DNA of 64,000 bases from Flavobacterium sp. J372 (GTDB lineage Bacteria; Bacteroidota; Bacteroidia; Flavobacteriales; Flavobacteriaceae). Numbering within the stretch: position 1 is the first letter of the stretch; each line of letters starts with the position of its first letter. The DNA lies in assembly GCF_024699965.1 (NCBI RefSeq), contig NZ_JAJOMZ010000004.1, positions 1,052,001 to 1,116,000 of the forward strand, read 5' to 3'. The notes beneath the pieces were generated by a model. It did not search any database. It saw only the letters and a list, made by a program, of their open reading frames with translations, and was not told the origin of the DNA. A program made the translations under genes and the position numbers. Below, one piece after another: positions 19,204 through 27,615 of the stretch.

Positions 19204-21718
19204 ATGGCAAAGAATTTAGTGATTGTTGAGTCGCCCGCAAAGGCAAAAACCATAGAGAAATTTTTAGGGAAAGATTACCAGGTTGAGTCGAGCTACGGCC
19301 ATATAGCCGACCTTCCGTCAAAAGAAATAGGGGTAGATGTAGCCAACGGATTCAAACCTCATTACGAAGTTTCTCCCGACAAAAAAGCTTTGGTTAAAAA
19401 ACTCAAAGACCTTTCTAAATCTGCCGATATGGTCTGGCTGGCAAGTGATGAGGATCGCGAGGGTGAGGCAATAGCATGGCACCTGGCGGAAGAACTGAAA
19501 CTGGACAAGGCTAAAACTAAAAGGATAGTTTTTAATGAAATCACTAAAACAGCCGTACAAAAAGCAATTGAAAACCCGCGCGGTATAAACTATGATCTTG
19601 TAAATGCGCAGCAGGCCCGCCGTGTGCTTGACAGGCTTGTGGGTTATGAACTTTCACCTGTACTTTGGAAAAAGGTAAAAAGCGGACTTTCTGCAGGAAG
19701 GGTACAGTCGGTTTCGGTTAGGCTTATTGTAGAGCGCGAGCGCGAAATCAGGGATTTTAAACCTGAAGCATCATACAACATTACGGCCGAGTTTACTAAT
19801 GCAGAAGGCAAAACTGTAAAGGCAAAACTTCCTAAAAACTTTACAACAGAACAAGAGGCGCAGGATTTCCTGAATAAAAATATCGGCTCACAATACAAAG
19901 TGGCCGACCTTGAGACAAAGCCGGCAAAAAAATCTCCGGCAGCGCCTTTTACAACTTCTACGTTACAGCAGGAGGCCTCGCGTAAGCTTAGCTTCCCGGT
20001 AGGCGTAACCATGATGATGGCGCAGAGGCTTTATGAAGCAGGGCTTATTACTTATATGAGGACTGACAGCGTTAACCTTTCTCAGGAAGCTATGGCAGCG
20101 GCGAAAGATGAAATCACACGTTCATACGGTGCCGAGTTCAGCCATCCGCGTAATTATGCTACGAAATCAAAAGGGGCACAGGAGGCGCACGAGGCCATCC
20201 GCCCTACGGATATGACACGCCACACAGTGAATATAGACCGTGACCAGGCAAGGCTTTATGACCTGATTTGGAAACGTACGGTAGCTTCACAAATGAGTGA
20301 CGCCAAGCTGGAGCGTACCAATGTGAAGATTGAAGCCAATAACCACAGCGAAATTTTTGCCGCATCGGGTGAGGTGCTTTTGTTTGAAGGCTTCCTTAAA
20401 GTATATCTTGAAGGCAACGACGATGAAGATACAGAACAGGAAGGTATGCTTCCTGCCTTGAAAGTTGGTGAAAAGCTTGAAAATAACTCTATCACCGCTA
20501 CGCAGCGTTTTTTCACGCCCGCCGGCCCGCTATACTGAGGCTGCGCTGGTGAAAAAACTTGAAGAACTGGGAATAGGCCGCCCGTCAACATACGCACCAA
20601 CCATCTCTACCATCATCAACAGGAATTATGTTGAGAAAGGAAGCTTTGAGGGGCAGGAGCGTAAATACAGCCAGATGGTTTTGAAAGATGGCAAAGTTAC
20701 ATCGGCAGAACTAACTGAAAATGTTGGTTCAGATAAAGGCAAACTGGTTCCGACAGACATAGGTATCATTGTAAATGATTTCCTTGTAAACCATTTTGAG
20801 ACAATACTCGATTACAATTTTACCGCAAAGGTTGAGCAGGATTTTGACGAGATAGCCCAGGGCAATGAAGACTGGACTAAGATGATGAACGATTTCTACG
20901 GCCATTTCCATCCGACAGTGAAAGACGTAGAAAAGAATGCCGACCGTGAATCGGGCGAGCGCATTTTGGGTACCGACCCTAAGACTGGCAAACCTGTGAG
21001 TGTACGCCTTGGGAAATTTGGCCCGATGGCACAGATAGGTGATGCTGAAGATGACAACAAGCAGTTCGCAAGCCTGCTGCCGGAGCAAAATATTGGCAGC
21101 ATTACGCTTGACGAAGCACTTGGTTTGTTCATGCTTCCGAAAAACCTGGGTATATATAAAGGAGAAGAAGTTGAGGTAAATAACGGTCGTTTTGGTCCGT
21201 ATGTGCGCTTTGGTAAAACATTTATCTCCCTGCCAAAAGGTGAGGACCCATTGGATGTAACGTTTGAAAGGGCGAAAGAACTTATCGGTGAAAAAGAGCA
21301 GGCTGATGCGCCAATCGGGTACTATGAAGATATGCCGGTTCAGAAAGGTGTGGGAAGGTTTGGACCTTTTATCAAATGGAACGGTATGTTTATCAATGTA
21401 AGCAAAAAGTACAATTTCGATAATCTTTCGCAAAATGATATTGAAGCGCTGATAGAAGATAAGCTGCAAAAAGAATCGGATAAGGTAATTCACAACTGGG
21501 AGGCCGAAGGTATTAAAGTTGAGAAAGCACGATGGGGCCGTTCAGTTATTGTTAAAGGTAAAACCAAAATAGAACTCAACAAAGATGTTGATGCAGCTGC
21601 ACTGACGCTTGACCAGGTAAAACAGATGATTGAGGCAAAAGCTCCGGCTAAAAAAACTGCCACAAAAAAAACGCCTGCCAAGAAACCTGCCGCAAAAAAG
21701 ACAACCGCAAAAAAATAA
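19204..21718 (+). CDS. topA: DNA topoisomerase I, frame broken in this copy
   Basis: Type IA topoisomerase that relaxes negative supercoils. The first part carries the Toprim domain (VESPAKAKTIEKFLG, and the acidic triad in ASDEDREGEAIAWHL) and the active-site tyrosine in GLITYMRTDS. The second part continues with ARYTEAALVKKLEELGIGRP, followed by zinc-less C-terminal repeat domains (GRFGPYVRFG, GRFGPFIKWN) and an Ala/Lys-rich tail (APAKKTATKKTPAKKP) like histone H1. The frame breaks in the T6 run at 20508-20513; taking out one T gives TQRFSRPPARYTEAAL, the family sequence. The gene is essential in most bacteria, so the break is probably not real. It ends 6 bp before the arginase-fold gene, forming one unit. 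Confidence 0.96.
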
Positions 21719-21724
21719 TAGTAC

Positions 21725-22867
21725 ATGGTATTTGATTTCCTAGAACCGCTGGATTCAGAAATGCTTCATTTTATAGAAGGGCTTTCACAGCAAACCCTCG
21801 GGCATAAAGTGGCGCTGCATACTGCTGCTGATTTTCCCGAGCTGCAGCAGGTGAAAATCGCGATTATCGGTGTTTTGGAGAATGCAGGCCAGCCGGACAG
21901 GAGAGATCATGTACACCTTAATTATATACGCAGGGAATTTTATAAGCTATATCCCGGTAACTGGGAAGCGAAAATAGCCGATCTGGGCAATATACCTGCA
22001 GGCAATGACCTGCAGGATACCTACTTTGCTGTTAAAGGGATCATGGCGGAGTTGCTGAAAAGTAAAATCATTCCGGTTATACTGGGTGGTTCGCAAGACA
22101 TCACATACGCTATGTATCGCGCCTATGACAGCCTGGAGCAGATGGTGAACCTGGCAGCAATTGATAATAAGTTTGACTTCGGTAAGCAGGAAGAAGAAAT
22201 TGCGGCACACTCGTATCTTACCCATATAATAGTAGATGAGCCCAATAATCTTTTCAACTACAGCAACATCGGTTACCAAACCTATTTCAACCCACAGGAA
22301 GAAATAGACCTGATTGACAAGTTATTTTTTGATGCGTACCGCTTAGGTGAAGTTTGTGCGAACCCGGCCGTGGCGGAACCTGTTTTTAGAGATGCTGATT
22401 TGGTAAGTCTTGATATGACGGCAGTTAAGAGCAGCGATTCTGGCAATTTAGTTAAATTTATGCCAAATGGTTTTAATGGAAAAGAAATTTGTACTTTAGC
22501 GCGCTATGCAGGGATAAGTGATAAAGTTTCGTCATTCGGAATTTTCAATCACAATAACAGCGGGCAGGAAGCCGTTTTAATAGCGCAGGTAATCTGGTAT
22601 TTTATCGAAGGGGTGCATTACAGGTCTAATGAATATCCGTTTGGCAGTAAAGATGAGTATATAAGGTATATCGTGCCGATGGAAGATGAAGAGCTTATCT
22701 TCTTTAAAAGCGATAAAACCGACAGATGGTGGATTGAGATACCTACAGGCAATACTAAACTTAAGCGAAGCACGTTATTACCGTGTATATATGAAGATTA
22801 TGTTGGGGCCTGCAACAACGAGATTCCGGAAAGATGGTGGAAGGCTCAAAGAAAAAACATAATTTAA
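21725..22867 (+). CDS. Arginase/formimidoylglutamase-fold protein with degenerate metal site, next to gldK
   Basis: The 380-residue protein has the ureohydrolase (arginase, agmatinase, formimidoylglutamase) layout. The motifs that hold the two manganese ions are altered. The GGDH motif is GGSQD at 121-125 (His lost), the DAHxD motif is DNKFD at 147-151 (His replaced by Lys), and SxDxDxxDP is SLDMTAV at 228-234 (second Asp lost). At least three ligands are missing, so hydrolase activity in the usual sense is doubtful. No signal peptide is seen. It follows topA by 6 bp and precedes gldK by 150 bp. Automated annotation tends to name it formimidoylglutamase. A structural or regulatory role connected with the gliding cluster is my inference from position only. 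Confidence 0.8.
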   Translation: MVFDFLEPLDSEMLHFIEGLSQQTLGHKVALHTAADFPELQQVKIAIIGVLENAGQPDRRDHVHLNYIRREFYKLYPGNWEAKIADLGNIPAGNDLQDTYFAVKGIMAELLKSKIIPVILGGSQDITYAMYRAYDSLEQMVNLAAIDNKFDFGKQEEEIAAHSYLTHIIVDEPNNLFNYSNIGYQTYFNPQEEIDLIDKLFFDAYRLGEVCANPAVAEPVFRDADLVSLDMTAVKSSDSGNLVKFMPNGFNGKEICTLARYAGISDKVSSFGIFNHNNSGQEAVLIAQVIWYFIEGVHYRSNEYPFGSKDEYIRYIVPMEDEELIFFKSDKTDRWWIEIPTGNTKLKRSTLLPCIYEDYVGACNNEIPERWWKAQRKNII

Positions 22868-23017
22868 GCGAATTGTTACGAAATCGTTAGATTTTGCGTT
22901 AGTAAACAAGTGTTTAAGTTTTGTTTAGGTTTTTTTATTAAAAAAATTGTTTTTTTAAAATAAAATAAATAGGTTTACGCCCTTAAAAATAGAAGTACAT
23001 AAATAACCCAATTTTAT

Positions 23018-24405
23018 ATGAAGAAGCTTATTGCATTAACAGCAACTTTATCATTTTTAGTAAGCTGTGGTTCCAGTGACCGGGGGAGCTGGTAGGTGTC
23101 AGAGGCAAAAAGTGGAGGCCTGAAAAGCCTTACGGGATGACGTTGGTTCCCGGTGGTGCTTACATCATGGGTAAGGCCGACGATGATTTGGCTAACGTTC
23201 AGGATGCTCCGACTAAAACGGTAACTGTAACTTCATTTTATATGGATGAGACAGAGATTACAAATAGTGAGTACCGTATGTTTGTTGAATGGGTTAAAGA
23301 CTCAACTATAAGGACAAGGCTTGCAATACTTGCAGATGAAATGGGCCAGAAGCCAGGTGGTGATACCAAAGGTATAGGTGAGTATGCTTTTCTTGACCAG
23401 CAGGTTAAAGAAGGAGAAGAACAGTCTGCTTACGATAAATATATGTATGAAAATTACTATAGCGTAGGTACAGATGAAAATGATCCGTATGCCGGCAGAA
23501 AGCTGAATAAAAAAGCTAAGCTTATAACAGATCCTCAAAAATACCCGGATGAGTATTATGTTGAAGTTATGGACTCTATGTATCTCCCTGCATCAGAATC
23601 TTATAACGGGCAAAGGACTATAGATGTTACCAAGCTTAAATTCTCTTATGCATGGATGGATATTGCTGTTGCTGCTAAAGACAAGTCTAAGGCAACCAGG
23701 ACTAAGCGTAGCAAATACATGAAGAAAGAGCAGGTTGAAGTGTATCCGGATACTACGGTTTGGATTAAAGACTTTGCTTATTCTTATAATGAGCCTATGC
23801 ATAATGACTATTTCTGGCATGATGCGTATAGTGAATATCCTGTTGTAGGCGTTACTTGGCAGCAGGCAAAAGCTTTCTGTGCGTGGAGGACGCTTTATAA
23901 AAATGCATATCAAAAAAGAAAGAACAGGTCAAACGTGAACTCTTTCCGTCTTCCTAGTGAGGCTGAGTGGGAATTCGCGGCACGTGGCGGCCTTGAGTCA
24001 GCTACATTCCCTTGGGGCGGCCCTTATGCTAAAAATGACAGGGGATGTTTCCTTGCTAACTTTAAGCCAAACAGGGGTGACTATGCTGCTGACGGTGCGC
24101 TTTATACAGTTGAGGCAAAATCATTCGACCCGAATGAGTACAACCTTTACAATATGAGCGGTAACGTGGCAGAGTGGACAGACTCTTCGTATGACGCTGC
24201 TTCTTATGAATATGTTTCTACAATGAACCCTAACGTACCTGACCAGGCCAATAAGCGTAAAGTAACACGCGGCGGCTCTTGGAAAGACGTGGCTTACTTC
24301 CTGCAGGTAAGTACAAGGGACTGGGAATATGCTGACTCTGCACGTAGCTACATCGGCTTCAGGACAGTTCAGGATTACATGGGGACACAAAAAACAGGAA
24401 ACTAA
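23018..24405 (+). CDS. gldK: Gliding motility / T9SS lipoprotein GldK, frame broken
   Basis: Outer-membrane-associated lipoprotein that, with GldN, forms the periplasmic ring of the type IX secretion system. The start ATG at 23018 gives a signal peptide and lipobox (FLVSCGSSD, Cys17). The first frame stops at 23095, but adding one G in the G5 run at 23082-23086 yields DRGELVGVRGKKWRPEKPYG, joining the long frame. The mature protein is an FGE-sulfatase-like domain (GMTLVPGGAYIMGKADDDLA, VTSFYMDETEITNSEYRMFV, RLPSEAEWEFAARGG, MSGNVAEWTDSSYD, VTRGGSWKD). About 462 residues in total, near the F. johnsoniae length. gldL follows 60 bp later. Confidence 0.95.
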
Positions 24406-24465
24406 ACCAACACTATTTTATTATTTCTAATTAACTTAACTAAAAACTAAAAATTAAATTTTATT

Positions 24466-25094
24466 ATGCTACCTAAAAAAGTAATGAATTTCGCCTATGG
24501 TATGGGTGCGGCAGTTGTAATCGTTGGAGCTCTTTTTAAACTTATGCACTGGCCTGGTGCGAGCGCGATGCTTATCATCGGCCTTGGTACAGAAGCTCTT
24601 ATCTTCGGTCTTTCTGCATTCGACCCGGTAGATAAAGAACTTGACTGGTCATTGGTTTACCCTGAGCTTGCAGGTGGCGAAGCCAAGAAAAAGACGTTAA
24701 AAAAGAAGATCCTAAAGAAGCGCAAGGCCTGCTTTCTCAAAAACTTGATAACCTTCTTAAAGAGGCTAAGATTGACGGACAGCTTATGGAAAGCCTTGGC
24801 GCTAGCATCAGGAACTTTGAGTCTGCTGCTAAAGGAATTGCTCCTACAGTTGATTCAATCTCTTCTCAGAAGAAATACAGCGAAGAAATGTCTATGGCTG
24901 CAGCACAGATGGAATCACTAAACAGCCTTTATAAAGTACAGCTTGAAAGCGCATCTCGTAATGCTGAGGCTAACAAAGAAATCGCTGATAACGCTGCTAG
25001 GCTAAAAGACCAGATGCAGGCTATGACGCAAAACATTGCTTCACTGAACAATGTTTATGGCGGTATGCTTTCTGCAATGGGTAACAGGGGCTAA
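24466..25094 (+). CDS. gldL: Gliding motility / T9SS motor protein GldL, frame broken
   Basis: Inner-membrane half of the proton-driven GldLM motor. Two helices are at the N-terminus (FAYGMGAAVVIVGALFKL and AMLIIGLGTEALIFGLSAF). Glu43 inside the second helix corresponds by motif to the conserved Glu needed for proton flow in GldL. The cytoplasmic part begins DPVDKELDWSLVYPELAGGEAKK. The frame then breaks in the A5 run at 24688-24692; one added A gives KKDVKKEDPKEAQGLLSQ and the coiled-coil tail up to 25094 (LKDQMQAMTQNIASLNNVYGGM). Full length is about 209 residues, as expected. gldM is 51 bp downstream. Confidence 0.95.
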
Positions 25095-25145
25095 TTCTCT
25101 AATTAGTATTTATAAATAAACACAGAAAAACAAGACTGATTAGAA

Positions 25146-26678
25146 ATGGCAGGAGGAAAATTAACCCCTAGGCAAAAGATGATTAACCTGATGTATCTGG
25201 TTTTCATCGCAATGTTGGCCCTTAACATGTCAAAAGAAGTACTTTCTGCTTTTGGCCTGATGAACGAGCAATTCGAGTCTTCTAACGTAGAAGCTGGTAA
25301 AAATAATGAGCAGATGCACGGAGCATTGGCTGCAAAAGCTGCTGAGAACCCTCAGTTTAGCGCTGCAAAGCAAATGTCTGACAAAATCAAAGGCATCTCT
25401 ACTCAATTTTACAACTATGTTGAATCGTTAAAGAAAGATATCACTAAAACCGTTGAAAGAGAAGAGAACGGAAAACTTCCCTATGAGGCGATGGATAAAG
25501 GTGACAAGATTGACGAAGAGTGGTTTGAAGGCGATGGTTACTCTAAAAAAGGTAAAGAAATTGTTGCCGCTATAGAGAAATACAAAGCAGACATGAAAGC
25601 TGCTATCGGTAAAGATGTTAAATATAAAGCAATTACAGCCGAACTTGATAATAAATTCAGCACTGCTGACGTTGTAGATGGTGAAGGTGTTAAAAAGCAA
25701 TATCTTGATTACCACTATAAAGGTTTCCCTTCAATCGCATCTTTGACAAAACTATCTGCAATGCAGAACAACATCAGGAGTATTGAGGCAAACGTTTATA
25801 ACATTGCCCTTGGTAAAGCGGCTCTTGAAGCAGTATCTATGAAAAACTATACAGCTATCGTAGTACTTGACAAAAACGCTTACTTCCAGGGTGAGAAAGT
25901 TACCGGTAAAGTTGTTCTTGGCCGTTATGATGAGAATACCGTTCCTACTTCATTTCAGGGTCCTGGTAAGATAGAGAACGGACAGGCTATCATTAACATG
26001 ACAGCTGGTAACGTAGGTGAGCAGACAATCAACGGTAAGTTTACCTTCCTTGAAGATGGTAAGCAGGTGCCGCTTGAATTTAAAGGTACTTACGTTGTAG
26101 TGCCAAGGCCAAATTCGGCTACAATTTCAGCTGACAAGATGAATGTTGTTTACCGCGGTGTGCCAAACCCAATATCTGTATCATTTGCAGGTGTTGCGGC
26201 TGATAAAGTAAATGCTAGTGCACCGGGTATGCGTTCTGCAGGTAAACCTGGCCAGTATATACTTAATCCGGGCGGAGGAACTGAAGTTACTATTAGCGTT
26301 ACAGCTACGCTTCCGGACAAGTCAAACGTATCTGACAAGAAAACTTTCCGTATCAAAGGCCTTCCTGCACCGACAGGTAAGATTAGGGGTGAGGTTTCAG
26401 CTAAAGGTTCTGTTTCAAACCTTGAAGTTTGTACAGTATCTGCTGAAATGGAAGATTTCGATTTCCCGGTAAGTGTGAATGTAACTCAGTTTAATATTAA
26501 AGTTCCGGGGCAGCCAACAATTGTTGTTCAAGGTAACAAAATGAATGATAGGGCTAAAGCTGCTATCAGGAAGGCAAACAGGGGTGATGTGGTAGTTATC
26601 GACCAGATTAAAGCTACATTCTCAGGTATTGACCAGGCAGTTAAGAGGATTTCTACAGCTACGTTTGAGATCCAGTAA
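25146..26678 (+). CDS. gldM: Gliding motility / T9SS motor protein GldM
   Basis: Periplasm-spanning partner of GldL in the rotary motor of gliding and type IX secretion. The 510-residue protein has one N-terminal membrane helix (MINLMYLVFIAMLALNMSKEV) and a long periplasmic region, matching the four-domain (D1-D4) shape known for GldM: a helical D1 to about residue 225, then three beta domains (such as VLDKNAYFQGEKVTGKVVLG, YRGVPNPISVSFAGV, and the C-terminal VNVTQFNIKVPGQPTIVVQG). It reads through without a break. gldN begins 25 bp later. Confidence 0.97.
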   Translation: MAGGKLTPRQKMINLMYLVFIAMLALNMSKEVLSAFGLMNEQFESSNVEAGKNNEQMHGALAAKAAENPQFSAAKQMSDKIKGISTQFYNYVESLKKDITKTVEREENGKLPYEAMDKGDKIDEEWFEGDGYSKKGKEIVAAIEKYKADMKAAIGKDVKYKAITAELDNKFSTADVVDGEGVKKQYLDYHYKGFPSIASLTKLSAMQNNIRSIEANVYNIALGKAALEAVSMKNYTAIVVLDKNAYFQGEKVTGKVVLGRYDENTVPTSFQGPGKIENGQAIINMTAGNVGEQTINGKFTFLEDGKQVPLEFKGTYVVVPRPNSATISADKMNVVYRGVPNPISVSFAGVAADKVNASAPGMRSAGKPGQYILNPGGGTEVTISVTATLPDKSNVSDKKTFRIKGLPAPTGKIRGEVSAKGSVSNLEVCTVSAEMEDFDFPVSVNVTQFNIKVPGQPTIVVQGNKMNDRAKAAIRKANRGDVVVIDQIKATFSGIDQAVKRISTATFEIQ

Positions 26679-26703
26679 TTAAAAAATACAAAAAGTATAG
26701 ACA

Positions 26704-27615
26704 ATGAGCAGGAAGATTTTATCATTAATCGTTTTCTTCAGCCTGGTATCTTCAGCAGCGTTTGCACAGTCAAACTTGCTTAATGCCAAGACTGCAGACC
26801 AGATAGGCAAGAAAACTGCTGCGCAGGATTCATTAGACAATGACAAGCCGCTGCCATACGGCTACGTGGGCGACAGGGATGTACTACTGGCCAGGAAAGT
26901 TTGGGAAAGGATTGACCTTAACCAACGCGTAAATTTTCCTATGTATTTTCCGATTAAAGGAAATCTTGGCTCTGACAGGAAGCCGCTTTATGATGTGCTT
27001 GTAGAAGGAGTTCGTAGTGGTACAATCACTGAAGTTTATGACGACAGTTATTTTGTAACGCGCAAAACCCTTAAAGATATAGAGGAGTCGCTTACTTTTA
27101 CTGATACAACTGACGCCGGTATTGAACAATACAATACTGATATCAAGGCTTATAAGTCGGGTAAGAAAACTATTTCTCCTGAATATATTAACAGGACTGA
27201 CATCAAAGCTATTGATGTTGAAGGATACGAAATAGTTGGCTACTGGTATTTTGACAAGCGCCAGGGTGAACTTAAGTACAGGATGCTTGGTATTGCTCCA
27301 ATCGTTCCGGACGTGTTTACCATGGGTAAAGAAGAGAAAGAGTATATCCGTATATTCTGGGTATTCTTCCCTGCGGCAAGAGACGTGCTTCATAAGTACA
27401 AAGCGTTCAATGAGGAAAACTCTGCCAGCGCCATTACGTTTGACCACTTGCTTAACTCAAGGCGTTTCAACGGAGTAATTATAGCCGAGGAAAACGTATA
27501 CGGAGACAGGCTCATTGAAAACTACTTGAAGGAAAATTCGCAAATGCAGCTTCTTGAAGCAGAGCGTATCAAAGAAAAGATACGTAACTTCGAGCAGGAT
27601 ATGTGGAATTACTAA
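26704..27615 (+). CDS. gldN: Gliding motility / T9SS protein GldN
   Basis: Periplasmic partner of GldK in the T9SS ring. The 303-residue protein has a signal peptide (ending AAFAQS, residue 22) and the family features YGYVGDRDVLLARKVWERID, MYFPIKGNLGSDRKPLYDVL, VEGYEIVGYWYFDKRQGELKYR and MLGIAPIV. It ends the gldKLMN unit and is followed by a strong terminator. Confidence 0.96.
   Translation: MSRKILSLIVFFSLVSSAAFAQSNLLNAKTADQIGKKTAAQDSLDNDKPLPYGYVGDRDVLLARKVWERIDLNQRVNFPMYFPIKGNLGSDRKPLYDVLVEGVRSGTITEVYDDSYFVTRKTLKDIEESLTFTDTTDAGIEQYNTDIKAYKSGKKTISPEYINRTDIKAIDVEGYEIVGYWYFDKRQGELKYRMLGIAPIVPDVFTMGKEEKEYIRIFWVFFPAARDVLHKYKAFNEENSASAITFDHLLNSRRFNGVIIAEENVYGDRLIENYLKENSQMQLLEAERIKEKIRNFEQDMWNY

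Follow-up and report, generated by a model that had tools for sequence, protein, structure and literature searches.

The eukaryotic arginase-like protein of T. brucei (4rhj) has an arginase fold and lacks the Mn cluster, and it is one of several described ureohydrolase-fold proteins with altered metal sites against which the present locus can be set. Formimidoylglutamase (HutG), with structures from B. subtilis (3m1r) and T. cruzi (4mxr), has the first motif GGDN in 3m1r, where the His is replaced by Asn, and keeps the ligands of both metals in its second and third motifs, DAHHD and SVDMD. According to its title, PDB entry 4myn is the T. cruzi enzyme with an N114H substitution, and we take N114 to be the first-motif position. 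In the arginase of Zymomonas mobilis (zmARG), an active two-metal enzyme, metal 1 is bound by C92, D116, D120 and D212 and metal 2 by D116, D212, D214 and H118; the first-motif His is replaced by Cys and an extra C-terminal element is a helix (PMC6988801, accessible part). The MetCb/MfmB subunit of metformin hydrolase (8ryi_C) combines the ureohydrolase fold with a non-functional metal site and needs the active subunit MetCa, according to the accessible part of PMC11271267. The gldKLMN genes, the T9SS core, are for their part treated as a predicted operon of their own in the accessible part of PMC5879114. The window analysed here, a stretch of 64,000 nucleotides from Flavobacterium sp. J372 (GCF_024699965.1, contig NZ_JAJOMZ010000004.1, positions 1,052,001 to 1,116,000), carries an arginase-fold gene between topA and gldKLMN (Table 1). 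The name ARGL is used below for its protein and for the family to which it belongs.

Table 1. Features of the ARGL locus, in coordinates of the window
Feature	Coordinates	Strand	Remarks
topA, upstream neighbour	19204..21718	+	two overlapping frames in the window
ARGL (putative pseudo-formimidoylglutamase / arginase-fold protein)	21725..22867	+	380 aa, ATG start; profile and Foldseek matches
First motif GGSQD, residues 121-125	22085..22099	+	site-A position 124 is Gln, not His
Second motif DNKFD, residues 147-151	22163..22177	+	site-A Asp147 and Asp151 kept; site-B His149 lost
Third motif SLDMTAV, residues 228-234	22406..22426	+	Asp230 kept; site-B Asp232 lost
C-terminal module, residues ~305-380	22637..22864	+	predicted; Trp335, Trp336, Cys354 and Tyr359 invariant in A3
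Promoter-like motif TTG-N20-TAGGTTTA, between ARGL and gldK	22947..22977	+	conserved in close loci
gldK, gldL, gldM, gldN (T9SS core), downstream	23018..27615	+	gldK and gldL frame-shifted in the window

The ARGL reading frame is open without interruption, both in the ORF listing and in the sequence itself, and it is also open in almost all genomes listed, in agreement with the preliminary description of an intact gene. The Pfam Arginase model (PF00491) matches residues 68-210 with 32.4 bits (cut-off 22), and with the NCBIfam hutG model (TIGR01227) the score of 44.6 bits falls far short of the equivalog cut-off, 229. Much of the following relies on an alignment termed A3, which holds the window protein and 58 of the 67 fetched coordinates; six loci for which the start was chosen too late (L168, L169, L172, L175, L178, L188) and three divergent ones of family f5 (L214-L216) are absent from it, and L208-L211 (family f19) and L236 were never in its source set. 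All 59 A3 members match TIGR01227 at E up to 0.01 and 58 of them match PF00491 at E up to 1, placing ARGL in the arginase superfamily. When a profile of the 59 members was compared with the PDB, the best match was the HutG structure 3m1r (E 6.7e-18), over residues 47-304 only. An AF2 model of ARGL (mean pLDDT 74, pTM 0.72, residues 185-210 poorly modelled) returned ureohydrolases throughout the best 50 Foldseek matches listed, with metformin hydrolase first, HutG within the first dozen and the T. brucei protein at rank 49. The fold and a profile match over the full core are thus common to ARGL and HutG.

The metal ligands of ARGL were assigned by motif from the Zymomonas arginase, which gives positions 124, 147, 151 and 230 as site A and positions 149 and 232 as ligands of site B only. 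The three motifs are changed exactly as first read, but half of the site stays, as Asp147, Asp151 and Asp230 are all in place. In a near set of 112 aligned rows, three of them the window protein itself, Gln124 is found in every row, position 149 is Lys, Arg, Gln or Thr and never His, and position 232 is never Asp; within the close family the ligand changes are fixed. Position 124 is more variable in A3 (Q in 41, H in 12, N in 4, S and D in one each; n=59), and the site-A carboxylates are nearly constant (D147 in 58, D151 in 56 and D230 in 57 of 59), whereas the ligands of site B alone are almost absent (H149 in 2/59, D232 in 1/59). The full site-A pattern [HQN]DDD occurs in 55/59 members of A3 and in 109/110 of the near set, H149 and D232 never occur together in either (0/59 and 0), and no A3 member has more than four of the six ligands of a two-metal site. 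By column entropy, D147, D230 and D151 rank 16, 26 and 33 among 380 columns, and positions 124, 232 and 149 rank only 106, 231 and 340.

The same picture is obtained from 73 representatives, comprising 72 fetched in-class loci and the window, in a count where the first two motifs of L209 and L211 are unaligned: the A pattern (H, Q or N124 with D147, D151 and D230) is kept in 59 and both B ligands in none, H149 being present in two (L191, L201) and D232 in five (L209, L214-L217). The pattern fails in L165, L173, L175, L188, L208-L211, L214-L218 and L236. Site A too is lost in families f5 and f19, and Asn stands at position 151 in five further representatives (L173, L175, L188, L218, L236). Since the ligand pattern recurs throughout the class in genomes that were sequenced independently, it reflects more than chance. 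Judged from these alignments, the ligand loss in ARGL is fixed but one-sided, with site B gone and site A mostly held; of the lost metal ligands initially claimed, those of site B are indeed lost, and site A is retained in most lineages. The first-motif change was rejected as proof of inactivity, because 3m1r has Asn and the active zmARG has Cys where ARGL has also replaced the His, and loss of this residue is therefore not diagnostic. The difference from HutG lies in the other two motifs, where 3m1r has the ligands of both metals and ARGL is without those of B. With His149 and Asp232 lost, the two-metal-activated hydroxide for guanidino or formimino cleavage presumably cannot form, and ARGL would therefore not be a canonical hydrolase. 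That it is a canonical two-metal hydrolase appears very unlikely from the ligand pattern, as the two B ligands are never both present in the 73 representatives, and the earlier suggestion of a probably non-catalytic protein stands in this sense.

As its ligands suggest, the oxygen-rich pocket of site A may be occupied by a single hard metal (Mg, Ca or Mn). Gln124 would be a weak ligand, however, and the carboxylates may have a structural role instead; a requirement for one metal cannot hold throughout the family, because f5 and f19 are without site A and five other representatives have Asn151. Whether ARGL is still an enzyme, working with one metal in site A on a new chemistry, bears on the same residues. 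Such an enzyme would account for the site-A carboxylates being among the most conserved columns, and further residues outside the A ligands are constrained, with Gln185, Glu218 and Arg222 invariant in A3 and Cys256 present in 57/59. Residue 275, which we take to be the catalytic Glu position of arginases, is Glu in 41/59 of A3 but Asn in 107/112 of the near set, and this, together with the loss of site A in f5 and f19, leads us to regard a one-metal enzyme as improbable.

Beyond the ureohydrolase core, ARGL carries a C-terminal module for which four strands followed by two helices are predicted (model pLDDT 75). The columns invariant in A3 include D86, Q185, E218, R222, W291, W335, W336, C354 and Y359, and the last four of these fall in the module. 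A profile of the module searched against the ORFs of the fetched loci gave 222 matches, all of them ARGL, and the ARGL-profile matches without it were nine canonical enzymes and two f5 proteins (L214, L215); it was not found in the canonical relatives examined. Nothing in the 3m1r chain corresponds to residues 305-380, the extra element of zmARG is unlike that of ARGL in being a helix, and to our knowledge the T. brucei arginase-like protein has no such module. Apart from Arginase, no Pfam family matched more than 3/59 A3 members (SH3b_P2, E 0.027), and a PDB profile search with the module gave no sequence under E 0.38. Assignment to a named C-terminal domain was rejected on these results. The Trp-rich module may bind a partner or a ligand.

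Searches with an alignment of 14 ARGL members gave matches in 114/148 genomes of the order, 244/256 of the class and 104/247 of a phylum sample, the class presumably being Bacteroidia, judged by its Flavobacterium members. Weak matches from beyond the class appear to be canonical on the basis of five fetched loci (L212, L213, L233-L235); the two highest-scoring, L212 and L213 of family f44, are both without the C-terminal module, L213 retaining all six ligands and L212 having Asn at 151. Within the class, nearest-pair dN/dS of ARGL is below 0.1 where computable, which is in one genus (0.03 for G624 versus G634; dS is saturated for G570, which gives no ratio). A pseudogene or random decay was rejected in view of this strong purifying selection and of the frames open in almost all listed genomes. 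The ARGL of family f5 (L214-L216) is strongly diverged and lies near glycosyltransferase-like and integral-membrane genes, as read by eye, a setting that suggests a second change of role. The 0.6 Mb genomes of family f16 (for example G052 and G142) keep one strong canonical arginase-family gene.

An assembly artefact was likewise rejected for ARGL, as the frame-shifts of the window hit its neighbours and not ARGL itself, and relatives agree. Within about 6 kb, topA, the start of gldK (23018-23137) and gldL (24466-25094) are frame-broken, and, in contrast to the copy in the window, gldK is uninterrupted in nearly all listed relatives; these breaks look like assembly indel errors rather than real loss. 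The genome also has, at a position not in the window, a canonical arginase-family gene (G000:C4:1026315-1027239; L001, L004) that is split over two frames, which suggests indel errors again.

The precedent of metformin hydrolase, in which a pseudo-subunit depends on an active partner (PMC11271267, accessible part), raises the idea that ARGL activates a canonical ureohydrolase in the manner of MetCb/MfmB, and the chains of that enzyme, 8ryi_C among them, are the top Foldseek matches to ARGL. The gene content of the genomes argues against this. In 41 of the 114 order genomes with ARGL, a count made by hand that takes in some incomplete genomes, there is a single PF00491 match, which is weak (E about 1e-11 to 1e-26), and no match of canonical strength. 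This sole match is ARGL in 7/7 genomes checked (G025, G029, G031, G034, G038, G048, G061), the E-value fitting the ARGL protein within a factor of five. With ARGL as the only arginase-family match, the protein apparently functions with no canonical relative present; a paired active ureohydrolase was found in none of the seven, and no active arginase-family gene was seen beside ARGL. The residues differ as well, as MetCb keeps only the D151 equivalent of the six ligands (in a weak alignment, E 0.0046), a pattern other than that of ARGL with its retained site A. A MetCb-like pseudo-subunit was rejected, since genomes often showed no family member besides ARGL, and we give this explanation very little credence.

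Gaps of 6 bp and 150 bp separate the gene from topA and from gldK, respectively, and the placement originally described is borne out by the coordinates. Where topA lies upstream, the topA-ARGL gap has a median of 3 bp and is at most 20 bp in 90/123 cases; with so few bases between the topA stop and the ARGL start, ARGL is probably translated with topA. Among the 72 representatives, 41 have both topA and gldK, 24 neither, five topA only (the contigs of two of these, L184 and L217, end within 1.7 kb downstream) and two gldK only, so that topA is retained in 46 and gldK in 43. The tight gap, the 46 representatives with topA upstream and the five in which topA but no gldK is seen would fit ARGL as a partner of TopA or of a co-translated DNA-topology or housekeeping unit, an explanation that overlaps our preferred one. 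Coupling by itself is no proof of interaction, though, 24/72 representatives have neither neighbour and gldK is retained almost as often as topA; we consider a TopA partner a decidedly long shot.

On the downstream side, GldK is found within 4 kb on the same strand in 87 of the 109 order genomes having both genes, and in the class the linkage is 88/107 among the matches listed, 150 each for ARGL and GldK. The association proposed from one genome therefore holds across genomes. In 22 of the 87 linked genomes gldK lies within 400 bp, and in 65 there is room for one gene; this intervening gene belongs to the PorP/SprF family, over the cut-off in 9/9 tested. The unlinked order genomes number 22, and in 19 of them, all of family f5, both genes are present far apart. 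At three loci away from gldK (L187 of f95, L209 and L211 of f19) a GldJ-like gene is nearby instead, a call meaning that GldJ is the best match, yet under the cut-off of that model. ARGL is adjoined by murF in L187 and L209, and porU and a PorP-family gene are present at L209.

The gap between ARGL and gldK spans 72-272 bp in Flavobacterium-group loci (n=79). A motif of the form TTG-N17-23-TAnnTTT[AG] is present in 73/79 of these gaps (shuffles: mean 7.7, maximum 12) and the exact form TTG-N19-21-TAGGTTTA in 59/79 (shuffles: 0.1), both forms having been picked after viewing the gaps and the shuffles preserving base content only. TAnnTTTG is the promoter consensus; alone it occurs in 36/79 gaps (shuffles: mean 14.9, maximum 23), and as TTG-N15-20-TAnnTTTG in 9/79 (shuffles: 1.6, maximum 5). 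The motif before gldK is presumably of the Bacteroidetes promoter type. A terminator scan found no terminator-like site on the plus strand from 21500 to 23200, and read-through from ARGL into gldK is therefore possible. A TTTAGC motif, a pattern picked after viewing, recurs in about 16-17 of 31 ARGL-porP gaps (L158-L230; shuffles 1.3) and is perhaps the promoter of porP-gldKLMN outside Flavobacterium.

The preliminary description saw in this setting a candidate factor of the secretion machine. In its explicit form, ARGL would be a dedicated cytoplasmic T9SS or gliding factor that docks, for instance, on the cytoplasmic side of GldL or sets gldKLMN expression. The deep gldK synteny speaks for such a role, as do the PorP/SprF family of the intervening gene, the GldJ-like genes near ARGL in L187, L209 and L211 with porU and a PorP-family gene at L209, and the lack of a terminator-like site ahead of gldK. 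Gene absences add to this: ARGL and GldK are both missing from the 20 small genomes of family f16, absence being inferred for unlisted rows, and of the 12 class genomes from which ARGL is absent, four (G378, G386, G495, G582) are also without SprA. The other eight (G341, G409, G441, G472, G516, G534, G550, G590) carry SprA, however, and eight order genomes have GldK over the cut-off but no ARGL. Conversely, ARGL is full length, with the family residues kept, in three genomes without GldM over the cut-off (G570, G614, G624), all from genus g64, in which ARGL is present in 30/30 genomes and GldM over the cut-off in 27/30; this retention is a result from a single genus, with near-identical ARGL sequences in two of the three genomes.

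Genetic linkage of ARGL to T9SS genes was thus found, and obligate co-occurrence was not, with ARGL without GldM in three genomes and SprA without ARGL in eight. These mismatches indicate, as far as one genus can show, that ARGL and the T9SS are not strictly dependent on each other. A promoter-like motif separates ARGL from gldK in 73/79 gaps, and 19 of the 22 unlinked order genomes, with both genes far apart, are one family. With topA the closer neighbour where it lies upstream, the gldK promoter-like motif, ARGL retained without GldM and SprA present without ARGL, the proposed factor of the secretion machine is unsupported, and a simple T9SS component was rejected on these grounds. The T9SS neighbourhood of ARGL is real, but we consider a T9SS role unlikely, its probability being modest. 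The earlier interpretation as a whole keeps its fixed ligand change and its deep gldK linkage and loses the role as a machine factor. G614 holds a GldM remnant with a stop, and the apparent T9SS motor losses of G570, G614 and G624 occur in genomes of 3.1-6.0 Mb. No SprA match was found in G570 or in G173; the latter, a single-contig genome with GldK and GldM present and SprA absent, has an odd T9SS complement.

The combined results favour, with some reserve, a reading of ARGL as a pseudo-formimidoylglutamase without metal B, a cytoplasmic binding protein perhaps with one metal that stands beside the T9SS but is not dedicated to it. ARGL would have descended from a HutG-like formimidoylglutamase and would now be a class-wide pseudo-ureohydrolase, probably cytoplasmic as no signal peptide is seen, probably translated with topA, and adjoining the T9SS motor genes as no dedicated part of them. 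The evidence weighing against this reading includes, besides the weak Gln124 and possibly structural carboxylates, the families and Asn151 representatives in which site A has failed, the middling confidence of the AF2 model (pLDDT 74), the restriction of ARGL retention without GldM to one genus, the near-equal retention of gldK and topA (43 versus 46 of 72), the window sequence between ARGL and gldK without a terminator-like site, and a best structural match whose pseudo-subunit B needs an active partner. More tentatively, and with the odds against it, the family may represent a class-wide conversion from two metals to one, in which site B was selectively lost, site A was held and a new C-terminal module was added, yielding a sensor, switch or enzyme in the Bacteroidia cytoplasm that is translated with topA and heads the T9SS motor locus. 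The likelihoods given here to the different explanations overlap and are not meant to sum to one.

Automatic annotation of ARGL presumably gives a hydrolase, HutG being the best named model, which ARGL probably is not. In the open literature searched, nothing was found on an ARGL-type gene in a gld or T9SS context, although the protein is carried by almost all sampled species of the class (244/256). ARGL exemplifies a binuclear metal site that has decayed on one side.
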